Shown: positions 893 through 45,458 of the stretch, in pieces
Layout: each line of letters begins with the position of its first letter
Position numbering within the stretch: the stretch's first letter is position 1
Source of the DNA: Woeseiaceae bacterium
Lineage (GTDB): Bacteria > Pseudomonadota > Gammaproteobacteria > Steroidobacterales > Woeseiaceae
Length of the DNA stretch: 64,000 nt
Direction: 5' to 3'
NCBI GenBank assembly: GCA_021773135.1
Contig: JAJFKP010000018.1
Span: 62,001 to 126,000 of the forward strand
Position numbers and translations under genes: made by a program
Notes under the pieces: generated by a model
What the model was told of the DNA's origin: nothing
Databases searched by the model: none
The model's input: only the letters and a program-made list of their open reading frames with translations

Positions 893-2818
893 TCACTGTT
901 GTTGGCTGCCTGCACCGAGCGAATTGGCAACTTCCACGAATTGAAGTTGATCGCCGACCAGGTTGATGCGAAAAAGGCCATCTCCCAGGCCCCGCCCTAT
1001 TAAGGCTTCGATGGCAGGTTGAAATTCCGGATTCTTATTTGCAACCCAGATGTACTCCCAGTTTCGCAATTCCTCTCGAAGTGAATCGGGATCGGTGAGC
1101 AACCTGACCGAAGTTTCCTCTACGTGCACGCGACCGGGCGACAGCTGATACTGCAGCATTTGTCCGAGGACGCCGTTTTCGACGTCATTCGGGAAGAAGA
1201 CCCACAAGGGCGAATTTCCCGTCAGTTCGCGCATGCGCTCTGTAATCGGTTCTGTTTGTACGCGAAATTCATGCGGCGGCTGTTCCGAATAGAGCGGCCG
1301 CAGATAGGGTGATTCGAACACGTACATCGCCAACAGAAGTATCGCGAATATGAAGAAACGTTTTTCAACGAAAAGTTTTTCACCTAATTTCACTGGTTTG
1401 GCTTGCGCACCTTCAAACAACGGCAGGAGCGGTGAAAAGCAGAACAGCGCAATGGGCAGCAACATCGAATGTGAGTAACGGACATACGAGGACAGCAACA
1501 GGTCGTAGTCTGATTTCGAAGCGTAGCGATAACCGAGATAAAGACCAGCTATATACACTACACCTGTGAGCCACGTGCTTAACGATGCAACCAGCCACCT
1601 GAGACGGATTTCCTTTGCAAGCAGCGCGTACCAGGCCAGGAAAATTGCAATCAGCGAGAAGCCGAGCATGGAAAATGTCGTTAGTCGAAAGCGTTCCGTA
1701 AAGGCACTCATGATCGGGTAGCTGAAGGCGTTGTACTGCGCGGATACTTCGTCTTTACTTATTTGTTGATGCATCAACACTTCGACGAAGCGTCGGGTCA
1801 ACTCCTGCTGCTGCCTGTCGGTCAGGACACTTTGGCCGGATACAATGCTGCCTAATAATGAGGCGGCTTCCCCCTCGCCTGCTTCAACCGCCAGCGAATC
1901 ACGATTCGAATTCCAGACGAACAAGATTGAAAGACACAAGACCAGTGTTACGCTCGGAAAAGCCGCGGCCCGCAACCAACGTCGAGACATACTTTCCTGC
2001 GGTTCATTGGTCTTTGGCACTAACAGCAAGAGCGCGATGATGCCCGCCACGGCCATAGCAAAAAATACGCCGGTCGTTTTTGTCAGAACGATTACCGCGA
2101 GCGGTAATAAATAGCTGCCGAGATGCACCAGGTTGCTGTTTTTCCGTTCTACCAGAAAATTCAGCAATATCCCGGCAAACCAGGCGCCCAGCAGATGGTC
2201 AACATAAAGACTGGTAAATCCATGTCCAAAGTTAAATAACAATACGATCAGGAGCGCCAGCAGACCGATATGCCACAACACCTGTCGCCAGGCTACCTTT
2301 TCCCAGAGCACCATCAGTGGCGTCATGAGCAGAACGAATTGGGCCAGGTAAGCTGCGCCTTCGGGCCTGCCAGAGTAAACGGCGAAGTAGTATTGCCACA
2401 GGGATGTTCCGGGGAGATAGCGAGGATGCATTGAGTTCGTATCGGCGCCCCATAGTGCCTTGCTTGCCAGCATCTCTCGCAGAAAAACACCCCAGTGAGA
2501 ATACTCATCGTAGTAATACAGTGAGGATCCGGAGTGCAACAGCCAGTACAGCACACCGAGCACAGCAAAAATGCCGAGCGGGACTGGAAATTGCTCGCCA
2601 TTTCGCAGGTGCCGATAACATTCATAGCACGCCAGAAACGATCCGGTTGCCAGCAGAATGACCACGGCAGACGAGAGCGTGTTTGCTAATGCAGCCAGGA
2701 AAAGCACAACGAGCGCGGCGGAGACAGCATGCAATATGGCTGACGAACCGGACGAGCCGCGCCAGCGTTGCCAACCCAACGCAAATCCGGTTATTGAAAG
2801 AAAACTAAGGAGTTCCAC
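893..2818 (-). CDS. Multispanning GT-C-like glycosyltransferase or polymerase
   Basis: A 641-residue protein with roughly eleven to thirteen hydrophobic spans and a soluble C-terminal domain of about 120 residues. The first large loop (around residues 100-115) carries YYYDEYSHW, an acidic motif in the position where GT-C enzymes keep their catalytic Asp/Glu. It is followed by LPGTSLWQYY, also typical of lipid-linked-sugar transferases. It lies downstream of a GT4 gene and a flippase-like gene on the same strand (90 bases after the GT4 stop). This suggests assembly or transfer of an envelope glycan. It starts with GTG, with an AAGGA about a dozen bases upstream. The exact family and substrate cannot be named from the sequence alone. 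Confidence 0.65.
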   Translation of the reverse strand: MELLSFLSITGFALGWQRWRGSSGSSAILHAVSAALVVLFLAALANTLSSAVVILLATGSFLACYECYRHLRNGEQFPVPLGIFAVLGVLYWLLHSGSSLYYYDEYSHWGVFLREMLASKALWGADTNSMHPRYLPGTSLWQYYFAVYSGRPEGAAYLAQFVLLMTPLMVLWEKVAWRQVLWHIGLLALLIVLLFNFGHGFTSLYVDHLLGAWFAGILLNFLVERKNSNLVHLGSYLLPLAVIVLTKTTGVFFAMAVAGIIALLLLVPKTNEPQESMSRRWLRAAAFPSVTLVLCLSILFVWNSNRDSLAVEAGEGEAASLLGSIVSGQSVLTDRQQQELTRRFVEVLMHQQISKDEVSAQYNAFSYPIMSAFTERFRLTTFSMLGFSLIAIFLAWYALLAKEIRLRWLVASLSTWLTGVVYIAGLYLGYRYASKSDYDLLLSSYVRYSHSMLLPIALFCFSPLLPLFEGAQAKPVKLGEKLFVEKRFFIFAILLLAMYVFESPYLRPLYSEQPPHEFRVQTEPITERMRELTGNSPLWVFFPNDVENGVLGQMLQYQLSPGRVHVEETSVRLLTDPDSLREELRNWEYIWVANKNPEFQPAIEALIGRGLGDGLFRINLVGDQLQFVEVANSLGAGSQQQ

Positions 2819-2908
2819 GCGCGAAAAAATTCCTTCTAGACCACGACCAGAATGAAAAAGCCAGCTTGCGCCTTTACTTTACGAAATCGAACTGGAAAAT
2901 TAGTGCAG

Positions 2909-4027
2909 CTATTGCGCATTTCTAATATTTTCGTAGATCACAACGGTATCCGCAGCTACCCGGGCCCAGGAATAGTGTTCACGAAGTGCCTTACCCGCGT
3001 TGGCCGCAAACTGGATTCGCTGTTCGGCCGACCAATTCAATAACTCTGTCAGCTTGGCAGCCCAGGCTTGCGCATCTTCGGCCGGCACTAGATATCCGGT
3101 TTCGCCGTCGCGCACCGCGTCACGAATCCCTTCCAGGTCTGCTGCGACCAAAGGCGCACCATGGTCCGCGGCCTCAAGCGCGGTTAAGCCAAAGCCTTCA
3201 ACGTCGTTGCCATCCTGGTTTCGCACGTTAGGCATTACCATTGCGACCGCCTTCCGCTTCATCGCGTCGAACTGATCCCTGTCGAAATCGACCGGGAATG
3301 CGCCAGGCATGTTCACGCGGGGGTTCTGGCTCAGGTACGTACCGTCATCTGCATCCCAAACAGTGCCCACAACAGTCAGTTTCAAGTCGGATGGTAGCAG
3401 TGGCAGGACATTCTCGGCGAACCAGCGCGGCCCTTTGCGGCGGAAAACGCGTCCAAAAAAGAGTACAAATCGATCTTCTGAAATGGGTTCGATTGGCAGC
3501 TGATTGACAGCGTCCTGCAGGCGCACGCCCAACGGCACAACGGCGACCGGGCTGAATCCCTGCTCTTCGAGCAATTTCGCTGTATTGCGGCTGTTCGCGA
3601 TAAAGCAGTCGATACAGCTGCGACGCCTGGCGAGGGCAAGGTAGGCGCGATAGATTCTCGGCAACAAACCCGAACGGCGACCGTAGATCACATCCAGCCC
3701 GTGCAGCGCGATAACTGTCCGCGTTTTTGGCGAGCGCCAGCGGCTGACGCAGGCCAGCCCGATTTGCACCATGTCACCGAAGTGCACGACATCATAACGA
3801 TTCCTGCTCACCAGCAGGTGGTGCGCGGTCTTGACAAAGAACCAGGCGATAGCAATCGGCGCTGGCGGGCGTCCGTCTTTTCTTCCAGGCAAAACGCGGG
3901 TGTGCAGCGCTATTCCGGGCATCTTTGCCAGTTCCTGGGAAATCTCCCAGCTGTAGGTTTCCATGCCACCTACGGCCGGTGGCCATTTCCGGGATATCAG
4001 GAGAACTTTGATCTGTCGGTCGTTCAT
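2909..4027 (-). CDS. Glycosyltransferase family 4 (GT-B fold)
   Basis: A 372-residue cytoplasmic glycosyltransferase. The N-terminal acceptor domain begins with a beta strand and the glycine-rich PPAVGGMETYS loop (16-26). The C-terminal nucleotide-sugar domain has VLFFGRVFRRKG (188-199) and the GT4 EGFGLTALE signature, with the two glutamates at 277 and 285 that contact the donor. The family transfers a sugar from a nucleotide-sugar to a lipid-linked or glycan acceptor with retention of configuration. It sits between a flippase-like gene (46 bases upstream) and a GT-C-like gene (90 bases downstream), in an apparent operon. The donor and acceptor cannot be told. Confidence 0.9.
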   Translation of the reverse strand: MNDRQIKVLLISRKWPPAVGGMETYSWEISQELAKMPGIALHTRVLPGRKDGRPPAPIAIAWFFVKTAHHLLVSRNRYDVVHFGDMVQIGLACVSRWRSPKTRTVIALHGLDVIYGRRSGLLPRIYRAYLALARRRSCIDCFIANSRNTAKLLEEQGFSPVAVVPLGVRLQDAVNQLPIEPISEDRFVLFFGRVFRRKGPRWFAENVLPLLPSDLKLTVVGTVWDADDGTYLSQNPRVNMPGAFPVDFDRDQFDAMKRKAVAMVMPNVRNQDGNDVEGFGLTALEAADHGAPLVAADLEGIRDAVRDGETGYLVPAEDAQAWAAKLTELLNWSAEQRIQFAANAGKALREHYSWARVAADTVVIYENIRNAQ

Positions 4028-40696: not shown

Positions 40697-42091
40697 ATGC
40701 TGAAACCGACGCTGCAATTAAAACTCGGCCAGTCGCTAACAATGACGCCGCAGTTACAGCAAGCCATTCGCCTGCTGCAGTTACCCGTGCTTGATTTGAG
40801 TGCGCAGATCCAGGAAGCGCTCGAAGAAAATATCATGCTGGAAATGGAGGACCTCCCCGATGTCCCCAAAACTTCGGCAGAGACCACTGCGGAAATAGAG
40901 ACAATTCGCGCCGAAGACAGCTGGCAGTCAAGTTCGATGGAGCGCATACAGGACGGGGGCTGGAATGGTGAAGGTCGGCCTATTAGTGAATTTGCCGATG
41001 AATCGGGTCAGTCATTGCGTGAACATCTGCTATGGCAGTTGGAACTGGAGGATTTTTCGCCGCGAGAGGCGTTGATCGGCGAAGCGCTGATTGATTCGAT
41101 CAACGACGACGGATATCTGACTGCCGACCCCGAGGAAATTACTGATTCCATAGCCGCCGAAACCGGCGTTACCATTGATGAAATCGAGGAGGCTCTGCGC
41201 AAGGTGCAGCGCCTTGACCCGGTTGGCGTAGGCGCGCGCTCTTTATCCGAGTGTATCGTGCTGCAGCTGCAACAACTGGCGGCTGCGACGCCTGAACGCG
41301 ACCTGGCAATTGCAATGGCCACTGAACACCTGCCGCAGATTGCCGCAAAAGAATACGGAGAGATCCGACGATCTCTGCGCACATCGGAGGAAGCATTTGA
41401 AGTTGCGCTTGCGCTGGTCAAGAGCTGCAATCCCAAGCCAGGTCTGGCGGTCAGCCCTGCGTCCGCTGAATACGTTATACCCGACGTCTTTGTGCGCAAG
41501 ATTGACGGCCGTTGGCAGGTTGAAGTGAGCGCATCCGGAATACCCCGCCTGTCGGTGAATCAGCAGTACGCGAAACTGCTGCGTGGCAGCGGTGATCACG
41601 CTGTGTTGCGTACGCAGCTGCAGGAGGCACGATGGCTGGTGCGCAGCCTGGAGATTCGAAACGAAACGCTGATGAAAGTGGCAACCTGTATTGTCACTCG
41701 GCAGCGCGAATTTCTGGAACAGGGTGATGAGGCGATGAAACCGCTGGTGTTGCGCGATGTCGCCGAGAGCATAGGCATGCATGAATCCACGATCTCACGT
41801 GTGACGACGAACAAATATATGCACACGCCGCGTGGCGTATTTGAATTCAAATATTTCTTTTCGAGCCACCTCGCCACTGTTGGTGGAGAGGACCAGTCTT
41901 CAACGTCGGTGCGCGCCAAGATTCGCAAGCTGATTGGTGCGGAAAACCCCGCCAAGCCGTTGAGTGACAACAAGATTGCAAGCCTGCTCGCCGACGAAGG
42001 CATTACTGTCGCGCGCCGCACCGTAGCGAAATATCGGGAAGCGATGAAAATCCAGTCATCAAGCGATCGCAAAGTACGCAAGCCAAAATAG
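40697..42091 (+). CDS. rpoN: RNA polymerase sigma-54 factor
   Basis: An alternative sigma factor that needs enhancer-binding activators and recognises -24/-12 promoters. The 464 residues have the glutamine/leucine-rich region I (LGQSLTMTPQLQQAIRLLQLP), an acidic region II (about 50-110), the core-binding domain, a helix-turn-helix (ESTISRVTTNKYMHTPRGVFEFKYFF) and the RpoN box ARRTVAKYRE near 445-454. It follows lptB by 82 bases, in the conserved lptB-rpoN-hpf-ptsN order. Confidence 0.98.
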   Translation: MLKPTLQLKLGQSLTMTPQLQQAIRLLQLPVLDLSAQIQEALEENIMLEMEDLPDVPKTSAETTAEIETIRAEDSWQSSSMERIQDGGWNGEGRPISEFADESGQSLREHLLWQLELEDFSPREALIGEALIDSINDDGYLTADPEEITDSIAAETGVTIDEIEEALRKVQRLDPVGVGARSLSECIVLQLQQLAAATPERDLAIAMATEHLPQIAAKEYGEIRRSLRTSEEAFEVALALVKSCNPKPGLAVSPASAEYVIPDVFVRKIDGRWQVEVSASGIPRLSVNQQYAKLLRGSGDHAVLRTQLQEARWLVRSLEIRNETLMKVATCIVTRQREFLEQGDEAMKPLVLRDVAESIGMHESTISRVTTNKYMHTPRGVFEFKYFFSSHLATVGGEDQSSTSVRAKIRKLIGAENPAKPLSDNKIASLLADEGITVARRTVAKYREAMKIQSSSDRKVRKPK

Positions 42092-42222: not shown

Positions 42223-42543
42223 ATGCAACTAGACATAACGGGACATCACGTCGAAGTAACTGATCCGTTGAAAGAATATGTAGCGAGTAAATTGCAGAAG
42301 ACACAGCGACATTTCGACCTGGTAACCGACATGCATTGTATTTTGACTGTGGAAAAATTACGGCATAAAGCCGAAGCGACGGTCAGCGTCAATGGTGCAA
42401 AAATATACGCAGATGCAACCGAATCCGACATGTACGCTGCCATCGACAGTCTGGCAGACAAACTTGAACGCAGGGTCCGCAAACACAAGGAAAAACTGGT
42501 CGATCACCACGCCAGGGATTCAATGAAGAGAAAGATTGTCTGA
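42223..42543 (+). CDS. hpf: Ribosome hibernation promoting factor (short form)
   Basis: A 106-residue protein of the HPF/YfiA family that binds the decoding centre of idle ribosomes and favours 100S dimers. It has the family start MQLDITGHHVEVTDPLKEYV and the basic helix SLADKLERRVRKHKEKLVDHH. It lacks the long C-terminal domain, so it is the short form found with RMF or YfiA systems. AGGAG lies six bases before the ATG. The 131-base leader after rpoN contains two CTGG-TACCAG palindromes. Confidence 0.95.
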   Translation: MQLDITGHHVEVTDPLKEYVASKLQKTQRHFDLVTDMHCILTVEKLRHKAEATVSVNGAKIYADATESDMYAAIDSLADKLERRVRKHKEKLVDHHARDSMKRKIV

Positions 42544-42615: not shown

Positions 42616-43107
42616 ATGAACCTAGAAGATCTCGTCAAGCCTGACAGCGTGCTTTGTAACGTTTCCGCCCGCAGCAAGAAGCACTGCCTGGAAATACTCA
42701 GTGAGCTTCTGACGCGCTCGAATCCGGACATCGCCAATGAAGAAGTATTCGCAAGACTCATCGAACGAGAGCGATTGGGGTGTACCGGTCTGGACCGTGG
42801 CGTGGCATTTCCGCGTTGTCGCGTCAGTGGACTTCGGCATAGCTGCGCGGCATTGATGAAGCTCGCTGAGCCGGTCGATTTTGACACGATCAACGGCGAA
42901 TCTGTGGATCTGGTGTTCGGACTCATGGTGCCGGAAGATCTGAGCGACCAGGACTGCGCCGACATTAAAGAATTGACGCAATTATTCCGCGACCCGACCC
43001 TGTGTACTCGATTGCGATCTGCAACCAGTAGTAAAGAACTTAGTGATGCGCTGCTGGCCGGCCGGGTCGAACCGGTACCAAAAATACAAAGTGCACAGGT
43101 TCAATAG
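42616..43107 (+). CDS. ptsN: EIIA-Ntr-like protein PtsN, phosphorylation-site His replaced
   Basis: The gene has the position and length (163 residues) of PtsN, the EIIA component of the nitrogen-related phosphotransferase system that regulates potassium transport and stress responses. The fold motifs are intact: SKKHCLEILSELL, ERERLGCTGLDRGVAFP, DLVFGLMVPED and the C-terminal helix. But the phosphorylated histidine that normally follows this proline (PHGKL or PHARL, E. coli H73) is R67 here, in FPRCRV. The CGT codon at 42814-42816 is one base from CAT. The protein should be locked in the unphosphorylated state. No NPr gene follows rapZ. Confidence 0.93.
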   Translation: MNLEDLVKPDSVLCNVSARSKKHCLEILSELLTRSNPDIANEEVFARLIERERLGCTGLDRGVAFPRCRVSGLRHSCAALMKLAEPVDFDTINGESVDLVFGLMVPEDLSDQDCADIKELTQLFRDPTLCTRLRSATSSKELSDALLAGRVEPVPKIQSAQVQ

Positions 43108-43120
43108 AGGTAATTCAGCT

Positions 43121-44011
43121 ATGGCCACCGACAATCGCCTGATTATCGTCAGCGGGCTGTCAGGTTCCGGCAAGAGCATAGCGTTGCACGCGTTGGAAGA
43201 CCTTGGCTACTACTGCATCGATAACATGCCGGCCGCACTGCTTTCGTCACTGATTGAGGAAGTCACAAAACCTGGCGAAAGCGCGGCGCACAGAATCGCA
43301 GTTGGCGTAGACGCGCGCAATCGCCGCGAAAACCTGGTCGCGCTTCCCGAAAAAATTGACGCGCTTCAGGCGTCGGGATTACAAACAGACTTGCTGTTTT
43401 TGCAAGCAAGCGATGACGTACTTCTCAAGCGCTATGGCGAAACCCGACGCCGCCATCCGCTGGCCAGCGGCGATGACGATTTGCGCGCCGCAATTGAACG
43501 CGAACGCGACTTGCTGGGGCCCGTTATCAATGCCGCGGATCTGGTCATTGACACCTCCCGTTCCAGCATCTATGAGCTGGCCGACGCCATTAGAGACCGT
43601 GTGGATCGCCGTGAATCGCGTTCTCTGTCGATACTGCTGCAATCCTTCGGTTTCAAGCACGGCATACCCGCAGACGCCGATTTCGTGTTCGACCTCCGCT
43701 GCCTGCCAAATCCCTACTGGCGTGCCGGGCTCCGCAGCCTGAACGGTCTCGACCAGAAAGTGGGAGAATTCCTTGACGCTCAGGATGCCTTTGTCAACAT
43801 GTACGGTGATATCCTGCGTTTCCTGCAAACCTGGATTCCGGAATACATAAAGGTCAATCGCAGCTATCTCACCGTTGCGCTGGGCTGTACCGGCGGTCAA
43901 CACCGCTCGGTCTATATGACCAGAAAGCTGGCCGAAGCGCTGAGTCAATCTCATGACAAGATTCATACACGGCACAATGAACTAACCAGCCATTCCGCAA
44001 ATTCTTCCTGA
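43121..44011 (+). CDS. rapZ: RNase adapter / nucleotide-binding protein RapZ
   Basis: In E. coli RapZ binds the small RNA GlmZ and guides RNase E, thereby controlling glucosamine-6-phosphate synthase and envelope precursor supply. The 296 residues have Walker A GLSGSGKS near 13-20, a central QASDDVLLKRYGETRRRHPL segment, and the conserved C-terminal domain FDLRCLPNPYW and VALGCTGGQHRSVYM. I place the start at the ATG at 43121, 13 bases after ptsN, with GAGG upstream. Earlier in-frame ATGs lie within ptsN. Confidence 0.95.
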   Translation: MATDNRLIIVSGLSGSGKSIALHALEDLGYYCIDNMPAALLSSLIEEVTKPGESAAHRIAVGVDARNRRENLVALPEKIDALQASGLQTDLLFLQASDDVLLKRYGETRRRHPLASGDDDLRAAIERERDLLGPVINAADLVIDTSRSSIYELADAIRDRVDRRESRSLSILLQSFGFKHGIPADADFVFDLRCLPNPYWRAGLRSLNGLDQKVGEFLDAQDAFVNMYGDILRFLQTWIPEYIKVNRSYLTVALGCTGGQHRSVYMTRKLAEALSQSHDKIHTRHNELTSHSANSS

Positions 44012-44108
44012 AACTCCGAGCCAAGATAGCTACACTCTTGCACGACTTTTGATCGCGCAGAGTCGCGTATTGCAATGCCGTTGCACTCACTGACCGGAGA
44101 CCACACTC

Positions 44109-45458
44109 ATGGAGGCGAGAGAGCACACTCTGGCTAATCTGTCGCTGCTACGCGAGCGGCTTGGCGCGGGCAGACTGCGCTCTGCGAAGATGCTGGTCGG
44201 CAGCTTGCATCCGTCCGAAATAGCGCGCCTGCTTGAATCATTGCCGCTCGCAGAGCGTGCCGTCCTGTGGGAAATGATTGCGACGGACAGCGAGGGAGAT
44301 GTCCTCGTAGAACTGGCCGATGAGGTGCGAGATGGCCTGATCGAAAGCATGCAGACGGAAGAAATCGTCGCGGCGCTCGATGGTATGGAGCCTGACGATC
44401 TTGCCGATGTCGTTGCAGATCTCCCGGAAGCGCTGACCCGGGAAGTCCTGCGCTCTTTGGGCGAGCAGGAACGCAAACGCCTGGATACGGTGCTGTCTTA
44501 TGACGAGGACAGCGCCGGCGGCCTCATGAACCTTGATGTCATCACGGTGCGTCCGGATGTCACGATTGAGGTGGTATTACGCTATCTGCGACTGCGCGGG
44601 GATATCCCGGACGGCACTGACACCGTTTACGTCGTTAATCGCGACAACGAATATTTCGGCTCCGTATTTCTGTCGCGCCTGATAACGCTCGACCCGAATC
44701 AATCGGTCGCCGAAATTTTGTCACCAGATATACAGCCTATACCCGCGGACACACCGTCCGAGGAAGTGGTTTGGGAATTCGAGAATCGGGACCTGCTGTC
44801 AGCACCCGTCGTCGACGATCGAAATCGCCTCGTAGGCCGCATAACGATCGACGACATCGTCGACATCATTCGCGACGAGGCGGAACATTCGCTGATGAGT
44901 GCCGCCGGACTCGACGAAGAGGACGACATGTTCGCACCTGTCGTGCGCAGCGCACAACGGCGGGCTTTATGGCTGGGCATCAACCTGGCAACGGCATTTC
45001 TGGCCGCCTCCGTCGTCGATATTTTCCAGACGACGCTGGACAAGGTGGTGCTGCTTGCAGTGCTGATGCCCGTGGTTCCCAGTATGGGCGGCGTCGCAGG
45101 CAGCCAGTCGCTGGTCGTCATAACGCGTGCTCTCGCACTTGGCCAGATAGACCGTAATAACGCCAAAAGAATTCTGCGCAAGGAGTTCCTGGTCGGGATG
45201 CTCAACGGCCTCGGGTGGTCTGTTGTCGTGGCGCTGGCAACCTACCTCTGGTTTGGCGATTGGCGCATTGGCGCTGTCATTGCCGGTGCAATGGCCGTAA
45301 ACATGGCAGTGGCGGCTCTGGCCGGCTTCGCTATCCCGCTGCTCTTGAGGCGCATGCGTATCGATCCGGCATTGGCGGGCGGCGTCGTGCTGACGACGAT
45401 TACGGATGTTGTCGGGTACATGGCTTTTTTGGGATTGGGTGCCACGTTCTTGCTTTGA
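44109..45458 (+). CDS. mgtE: Magnesium transporter MgtE
   Basis: A magnesium channel of the inner membrane that closes when cytoplasmic magnesium binds its sensor domains. The 449 residues comprise the N-terminal helical superhelix (about 15-120), two CBS domains (about 130-255), and a pore domain of five spans (about 280-449). The pore has LMPVVPSMGGVAGSQSL and the selectivity region around AGGVVLTTITDVVGYMAFLG. It occupies the place after rapZ where npr is found in many relatives. It begins 97 bases after the rapZ stop. Confidence 0.96.
   Translation: MEAREHTLANLSLLRERLGAGRLRSAKMLVGSLHPSEIARLLESLPLAERAVLWEMIATDSEGDVLVELADEVRDGLIESMQTEEIVAALDGMEPDDLADVVADLPEALTREVLRSLGEQERKRLDTVLSYDEDSAGGLMNLDVITVRPDVTIEVVLRYLRLRGDIPDGTDTVYVVNRDNEYFGSVFLSRLITLDPNQSVAEILSPDIQPIPADTPSEEVVWEFENRDLLSAPVVDDRNRLVGRITIDDIVDIIRDEAEHSLMSAAGLDEEDDMFAPVVRSAQRRALWLGINLATAFLAASVVDIFQTTLDKVVLLAVLMPVVPSMGGVAGSQSLVVITRALALGQIDRNNAKRILRKEFLVGMLNGLGWSVVVALATYLWFGDWRIGAVIAGAMAVNMAVAALAGFAIPLLLRRMRIDPALAGGVVLTTITDVVGYMAFLGLGATFLL

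Follow-up and report, generated by a model that had tools for sequence, protein, structure and literature searches.

Studies of PtsN, the EIIA-Ntr protein, usually approach it as a phosphorelay output. The Woeseiaceae, common and widespread marine (sediment) bacteria, mostly have PtsN and no such relay, and they therefore bear on the question of what share of PtsN work needs phosphate. The phospho-acceptor histidine of EIIA-Ntr is numbered H73 in the relevant passages of PMC5024086, in which Salmonella EIIA-Ntr is described as binding GlmS better when phosphorylated and its H73A variant as inhibiting less. In the known cases covered by parts of PMC13104625 and PMC11808508, unphosphorylated PtsN acts by binding. 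A portion of PMC2405797 reports that a few species have only part of the phosphotransferase system (PTS) chain or none of it, with HPr occurring without Enzyme I (EI) in Bartonella and Ureaplasma, and describes a Xanthomonadales-type cluster of rpoN genes, ptsN, ptsK, IIAMan, ptsH and ptsI. Section 9 of a 2026 review (PMC13104625) names genera without PtsN, and Legionella species that differ in which parts of the system they have; the reverse case, PtsN without its relay, is not among the examples in that section. A literature search covering titles and the beginnings of abstracts, with subscription papers outside its scope, returned no account of PtsN persisting where PtsP and PtsO are gone; in a Woeseiaceae genomics paper (PMC12175321), phosphotransferase, PTS, ptsN and rpoN do not occur as whole words in the main text.

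Here we analysed a window of 64,000 nucleotides from a Woeseiaceae bacterium (assembly GCA_021773135.1, contig JAJFKP010000018.1), in which ptsN lies 3' of rpoN-hpf and 5' of rapZ, as expected for PtsN/EIIA-Ntr (Table 1).

Results

The translations of the genes 5' of rpoN resemble yrbG, kdsD, kdsC, lptC, lptA and lptB, which we take to be the usual order. The start of rapZ in Table 1 was set by reading the sequence, the mechanical open reading frame beginning at 43043.

Table 1 Features of the ptsN locus, in positions of the window
Feature	Position	Strand	Evidence or remark
rpoN, sigma-54	40697..42091	+	TIGR02395 E 6.2e-144
hpf, ribosome hibernation factor	42223..42543	+	PF02482, TIGR00741
ptsN (EIIA-Ntr-like, 163 aa)	42616..43107	+	PF00359 E 6.5e-23, 81.7 bits vs cut-off 27
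ptsN codon 67, CGT = Arg, at PTS phospho-acceptor His position	42814..42816	+	motif FPRCRV
ptsN codon 113, GAC = Asp, at second conserved PTS His	42952..42954	+	
rapZ	43121..44011	+	NF003828 E 1.8e-104
rapZ-mgtE gap, 97 bases	44012..44108	.	site of npr-ptsI in relay-keeping relatives (L241, L243, L253)
mgtE, Mg transporter	44109..45458	+	TIGR00400 E 9.8e-91

Among six models, TIGR01419 gave the best match to the encoded PtsN at 107.8 bits, which is below its curated cut-off of 138.7, and a profile of the family PtsN matched the solved E. coli IIA-Ntr (1a6j) with an E value of 2.3e-35. In the profile alignment, residue 67 falls on the histidine of the PH motif of 1a6j, and the original prediction that the PTS acceptor histidine is arginine here was borne out (R67). 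An AlphaFold2 model of the protein had a mean pLDDT of 89.4, with residues 152-163 at low confidence. The second PTS histidine, presumably H120 in E. coli and equivalent to residue 113 here, is replaced by aspartate, and aspartate occupies this site in all nine same-genus PtsN examined. A second genome of the same genus (G024), whose PtsN is 77-79% identical, also carries Arg67, encoded by a different codon, CGC, so that a sequencing error at codon 67 is very unlikely.

The source assembly comprises 4.55 Mb in 64 contigs, is 99.67% complete and encodes one PtsN. Across the whole genome, the best match to HPr (PF00381) had an E value of 0.18 and 14.1 bits against a cut-off of 23, and the two sub-cut-off matches (E 0.18 and 0.90) contained stops inside their frames. 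A search for EI by its N-domain (PF05524) gave at best an E value of 0.18 and 13.7 bits against a cut-off of 24.4, and HprK (PF07475) gave no match at E 0.001. As controls, the HPr and EI N-domain searches, run at a tighter threshold, exceeded the cut-off in 7 of 14 genomes, E. coli included, and the HprK search did so in 2 of 14. Since none of the three proteins was found over threshold in a near-complete genome, the phosphorelay was taken as absent. Accordingly, with the relay enzymes missing and PtsN itself intact, PtsN can hardly be phosphorylated via the PTS route here. The failure of both ptsP and npr to exceed the threshold genome-wide supports the predicted loss of the relay, and the possibility of relay genes elsewhere in the genome was rejected, all three domain searches remaining below threshold.

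As had also been predicted, npr is missing after rapZ, and mgtE comes next. By tblastn, neither npr nor ptsI was detected in the fetched family stretches that hold ptsN. The rapZ-mgtE arrangement is the usual continuation after ptsN in the family, with some stretches showing no mgtE match after rapZ; in G045 and G072 (1.5 and 1.4 Mb; loci L080 and L107), no rapZ match lies between ptsN and mgtE, and at the G072 locus no hpf match was seen. In G031, a 94% complete genome of the same genus, rapZ adjoins rpoN, hpf and ptsN being gone from between them (L351, G031:C6, 448-2886), and no ptsN match was obtained in the whole genome.

The cluster rapZ-npr-ptsI-mgtE was seen entire at three loci of the order (G148, G149 and G172; L241, L243 and L253). 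A cluster of hprK-rapZ-manX-npr-ptsI was present in G131 as far as the stretch end and, outside the order, at L229 and L231; in L228 the order is hprK-rapZ-manX-npr-mgtE. Because relay-keeping relatives hold npr-ptsI between rapZ and mgtE, the most likely reading of the junction in the window is the fuller cluster without npr-ptsI, so that it resembles a deletion scar. The suggestion that mgtE stands in the place of npr did not hold, as mgtE lies 3' of npr-ptsI in the relatives with the whole cluster in view (L241, L243 and L253), which rules out mgtE as an insertion replacing npr.

We extended the survey to 107 Woeseiaceae genomes, mostly metagenome-assembled and many 60-90% complete, and found ptsN in 94 of them, in 95 copies (one genome has two). 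HPr exceeded the cut-off in 4 of the 107 genomes and the EI domain in 3, six more EI matches with E values up to 0.01 all falling under the cut-off. HPr was thus missing from 103 genomes, and from 42 of the 45 with at least 90% completeness and at most 5% contamination, and 90 of the 94 ptsN-bearing genomes had neither HPr nor EI over the cut-off. In G065, G070 and G104 (loci L123, L124 and L125), the HPr and EI domains share one long frame, and on reading, these fusions look like sugar-PTS proteins. G105, assembled as one contig of 4,059,891 bases, carries an HPr-like frame of 104 codons on its own, with the motif GIHARPS (L126, about 2694-3005), and the EI N-domain search found no EI domain in this genome. 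All four HPr-bearing genomes carry ptsN with His67. Ten of the 13 family genomes without ptsN have no rpoN match either, and three have one (two cut by contig ends); in genus g10 (G012-G020; 1.1-2.0 Mb, 52-99% complete), all nine genomes are without ptsN and rpoN matches.

Orphan PtsN is common in the order, because, among genomes at least 90% complete, 19 of the 27 ptsN-bearing order genomes outside Woeseiaceae have neither HPr nor EI. The other eight have HPr, and seven of them EI as well, with G171 stopping at a contig edge. Across the 247 order genomes at least 90% complete, ptsN was found in 72, HPr in 59 and EI in 57. Family f12 of the order (for example, G194 and G274) presents the reverse of Woeseiaceae, in that many of its genomes have HPr-EI frames and no ptsN match.

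At site 67, the 95 Woeseiaceae PtsN have either His (89) or Arg (6), and no other residue. The Arg67 genomes are G000 (this window), G024, G009, G005, G069 and G072, which are 99.67, 84, 99, 90, 96 and 88% complete, respectively; HPr and EI were not found over the cut-off in any of them. Arg is encoded by CGT or CGC, and His by CAT or CAC. Site 113 is less uniform, with the second histidine in 66 of the 95 PtsN, another residue in 28 and a gap in one. Elsewhere in the order, all 19 relay-less genomes with ptsN have His67, and 7 of 19 have the second histidine (two gaps), whereas the eight npr-linked loci of the order have both histidines throughout.

As a control at class level, we used 87 of 262 genomes with a match (3 of the 262 being Woeseiaceae), made up of 27 loci returned by the search and 60 obtained by taking alternate entries among 120 additional listed places. 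In this sample from outside the order, drawn from the better-scoring matches listed, with divergent PtsN outside it, His67 was present in 87 of 87 and the second histidine in 86. The fetched stretch contained npr at 55 of the 87 loci, 55 of which have His67 and 54 the second histidine. Among the other 32 stretches, 27 end within 1.5 kb past ptsN; L310, L324, L326, L333 and L340 run about 3.4 kb past ptsN with no npr there and both histidines kept. In these samples, relay loss accompanies erosion of the second histidine, and the first site stays His or turns to Arg.

The loss of the acceptor histidine had been tied to relay loss as one event. This was not borne out, as relay-less sisters keep the histidine: His67 is present in sister orthologues, namely in 7 of 9 same-genus PtsN and across most of the family. 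Since 89 of 95 PtsN keep His67 yet 90 of 94 genomes are without HPr and EI, the relay was lost first and Arg came later, five times. These five independent changes, always to Arg, were counted on a tree built by a quick search from rpoN, hpf, rapZ and ptsN alignment columns, leaving out sites 67 and 113. Several of its branches are weak, and it does not settle the number of relay losses; G000 and G024 are sisters on it with 99% SH-aLRT. Site 113 underwent nine changes within the family, and 12 changes between His and non-His on the whole tree. Arg67 as a partner of the lost second histidine was unsupported, the second histidine being kept in three of the five Arg lineages.

An LG+G simulation on the family tree yielded 221 His-majority sites with five changes, none of which changed solely to Arg, and two of which had a single alternative residue, Gln both times; these counts are at the amino-acid level and take no account of the fact that a single transition (CAY to CGY) turns His into Arg. 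The five changes at site 67 compare with a median of 10 and a mean of 13.8 over 146 sites, 60 of which, site 67 included, changed as seldom or less, placing site 67 outside the most constrained. The neighbouring P66 and R69 are unchanged in 94 of 94, and many PtsN domain sites never change within the family.

We also compared divergence between PtsN and RapZ. The median log-identity ratio was 0.97 for same-genus pairs with an Arg member, 1.09 for other same-genus pairs and 1.11 for other family pairs, so faster evolution relative to RapZ was not seen in the same-genus Arg lineage, the one of the five that this comparison covered. Between the ptsN genes of G000 and G024, pN was 0.14 (14% of nonsynonymous sites) and synonymous sites were saturated, which precluded a codon-level dN/dS. 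Judged from these sequences, Arg67 PtsN does not appear to be visibly decaying. Slow decay is possible, because G031 has no ptsN and none of the nine PtsN of the genus retains the second histidine.

Comparison of 94 Woeseiaceae PtsN (the divergent G001 copy left out) with 70 npr-linked PtsN revealed that R19, H23, C24, I27, C56, F65 and C68 are nearly fixed in the former and rare in the latter, and that C14 is fixed in Woeseiaceae and common elsewhere too. Cysteines 14, 24, 56 and 68 of Woeseiaceae PtsN are thus nearly fixed, and three of these four are rare in npr-linked PtsN. R19, H23 and, in part, C56 are frequent also in relay-less order genomes outside Woeseiaceae. Such family-specific residues fit a changed job of PtsN, although they prove none.

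Discussion

Collectively, we think it probable that orphan PtsN binds its partners in a permanently unphosphorylated state, and that its old active site needs a basic residue rather than phosphate. The gene order of relatives suggests that the Woeseiaceae ancestor carried ptsN-rapZ-npr-ptsI-mgtE behind rpoN, and that npr and ptsI would then have been lost, once or more within the order. PtsN would have remained as an orphan whose phosphorylation by the PTS route should be impossible with the enzymes missing, and it may bind and modulate partner proteins like the known unphosphorylated form, without an on/off switch. From the pattern of changes, the old active-site surface could still be engaged in binding, with position 67 needing a basic residue and no phosphate, which would be why most PtsN keep His and the only replacement seen is Arg. 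In G000 and its nearest sampled relative, Arg would make the unphosphorylated state permanent. Of the original prediction that the relay was lost and PtsN kept as a permanently unphosphorylated regulator, putatively of potassium transport or sigma-54-linked control, the relay loss and the retention of PtsN stand and the function is perhaps right in direction; the joint loss of histidine and relay is the part that falls.

Several points count against this reading. Site 67 lies outside the most constrained sites, ptsN is gone from G031 and the second histidine from the whole genus, two of the six Arg67 genomes are no more than 84 and 88% complete, and the change from His to Arg takes a single transition. 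Most species keep His and not Arg, and any explanation for this is a guess if phosphorylation is unimportant. In addition, a purely unphosphorylated mode fits poorly with Salmonella EIIA-Ntr, since its binding to GlmS is stronger when phosphorylated, according to the relevant passages of PMC5024086.

It is a speculative possibility, to which we give limited credence, that Woeseiaceae PtsN is a phosphorylation-independent regulator in which site 67 is selected for positive charge and the new fixed residues (R19, H23, C24, C56, F65 and C68, plus C14) form a ligand, metal or redox sensing site replacing the phosphate signal.

The main rival of the orphan-regulator reading is decay, in which selection weakens after relay loss, the second histidine, the first histidine and then the gene are lost, and Arg67 is nearly neutral. 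The gene is indeed absent from G031, where rapZ adjoins rpoN, yet it is retained in 94 of 107 genomes, and 10 of the 13 without it are also without an rpoN match. Of the 94 family PtsN without a gap at site 113, 28 have replaced the second histidine, as have 9 of 9 in the genus, and the class sample of 87 shows neither histidine change save one at the second site; against this, many PtsN domain sites are invariant in the family. Arg67 arose five times, yet His67 was replaced solely by Arg, and the same-genus Arg pairs diverge no faster relative to RapZ. We consider decay rather unlikely.

Less probable still is another phosphodonor, a non-PTS kinase or small molecule that phosphorylates His67 and whose circuit the Arg species have left. 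Such a donor would explain why His67 persists in most family PtsN (89 of 95) and in every PtsN (19 of 19) from the other order genomes without HPr and EI, and the lone HPr of G105, with its intact-looking histidine motif and no EI found, indicates that relay parts can outlive EI. However, no candidate kinase emerged among the EI, HPr and HprK searched, HprK having no match in the Woeseiaceae genomes searched, and the five independent histidine losses, always to a basic residue, together with the eroded second histidine, speak against a site that still receives phosphate. Finally, although the source is a draft genome of 64 contigs, an error of sequencing or assembly at codon 67, or relay genes hidden in gaps between contigs, can be dismissed for practical purposes, as five other genomes encode Arg67, by CGT or CGC, and HPr is missing so widely, even among the good-quality family genomes.

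Returning to PtsN as an orphan regulator, Woeseiaceae represent a natural experiment in which the relay was lost and PtsN kept, and the features conserved in their PtsN should reflect what the protein does independently of phosphate. With five natural changes from His to Arg, one residue stands out as directly testable.

With regard to known systems, the hprK-rapZ-manX-npr-ptsI arrangement of L250, L229 and L231 matches the Xanthomonadales-type cluster as described in part of PMC2405797, unlike the Woeseiaceae loci, which have no hprK, manX, npr or ptsI at the site. The incomplete PTS chains of the same source are alike in showing partial loss; Woeseiaceae differ in that the terminal acceptor stands alone in most sampled genomes. 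The E. coli nitrogen PTS (PtsP-PtsO-PtsN; 1a6j) shares with the locus studied here the domain family and the rpoN-hpf-ptsN-rapZ place, and the PH-motif region of E. coli EIIA-Ntr is kept here apart from the histidine. By contrast, the genome here has no EI, NPr or HprK that our searches could find, and its acceptor histidine is Arg and its second histidine Asp. A further parallel is offered by non-phosphorylatable PtsN mutants such as the Salmonella H73A variant of PMC5024086, as far as the relevant passages describe it, which is likewise locked in the unphosphorylated state; here, the lock would be a natural, recurrent Arg rather than a laboratory Ala.
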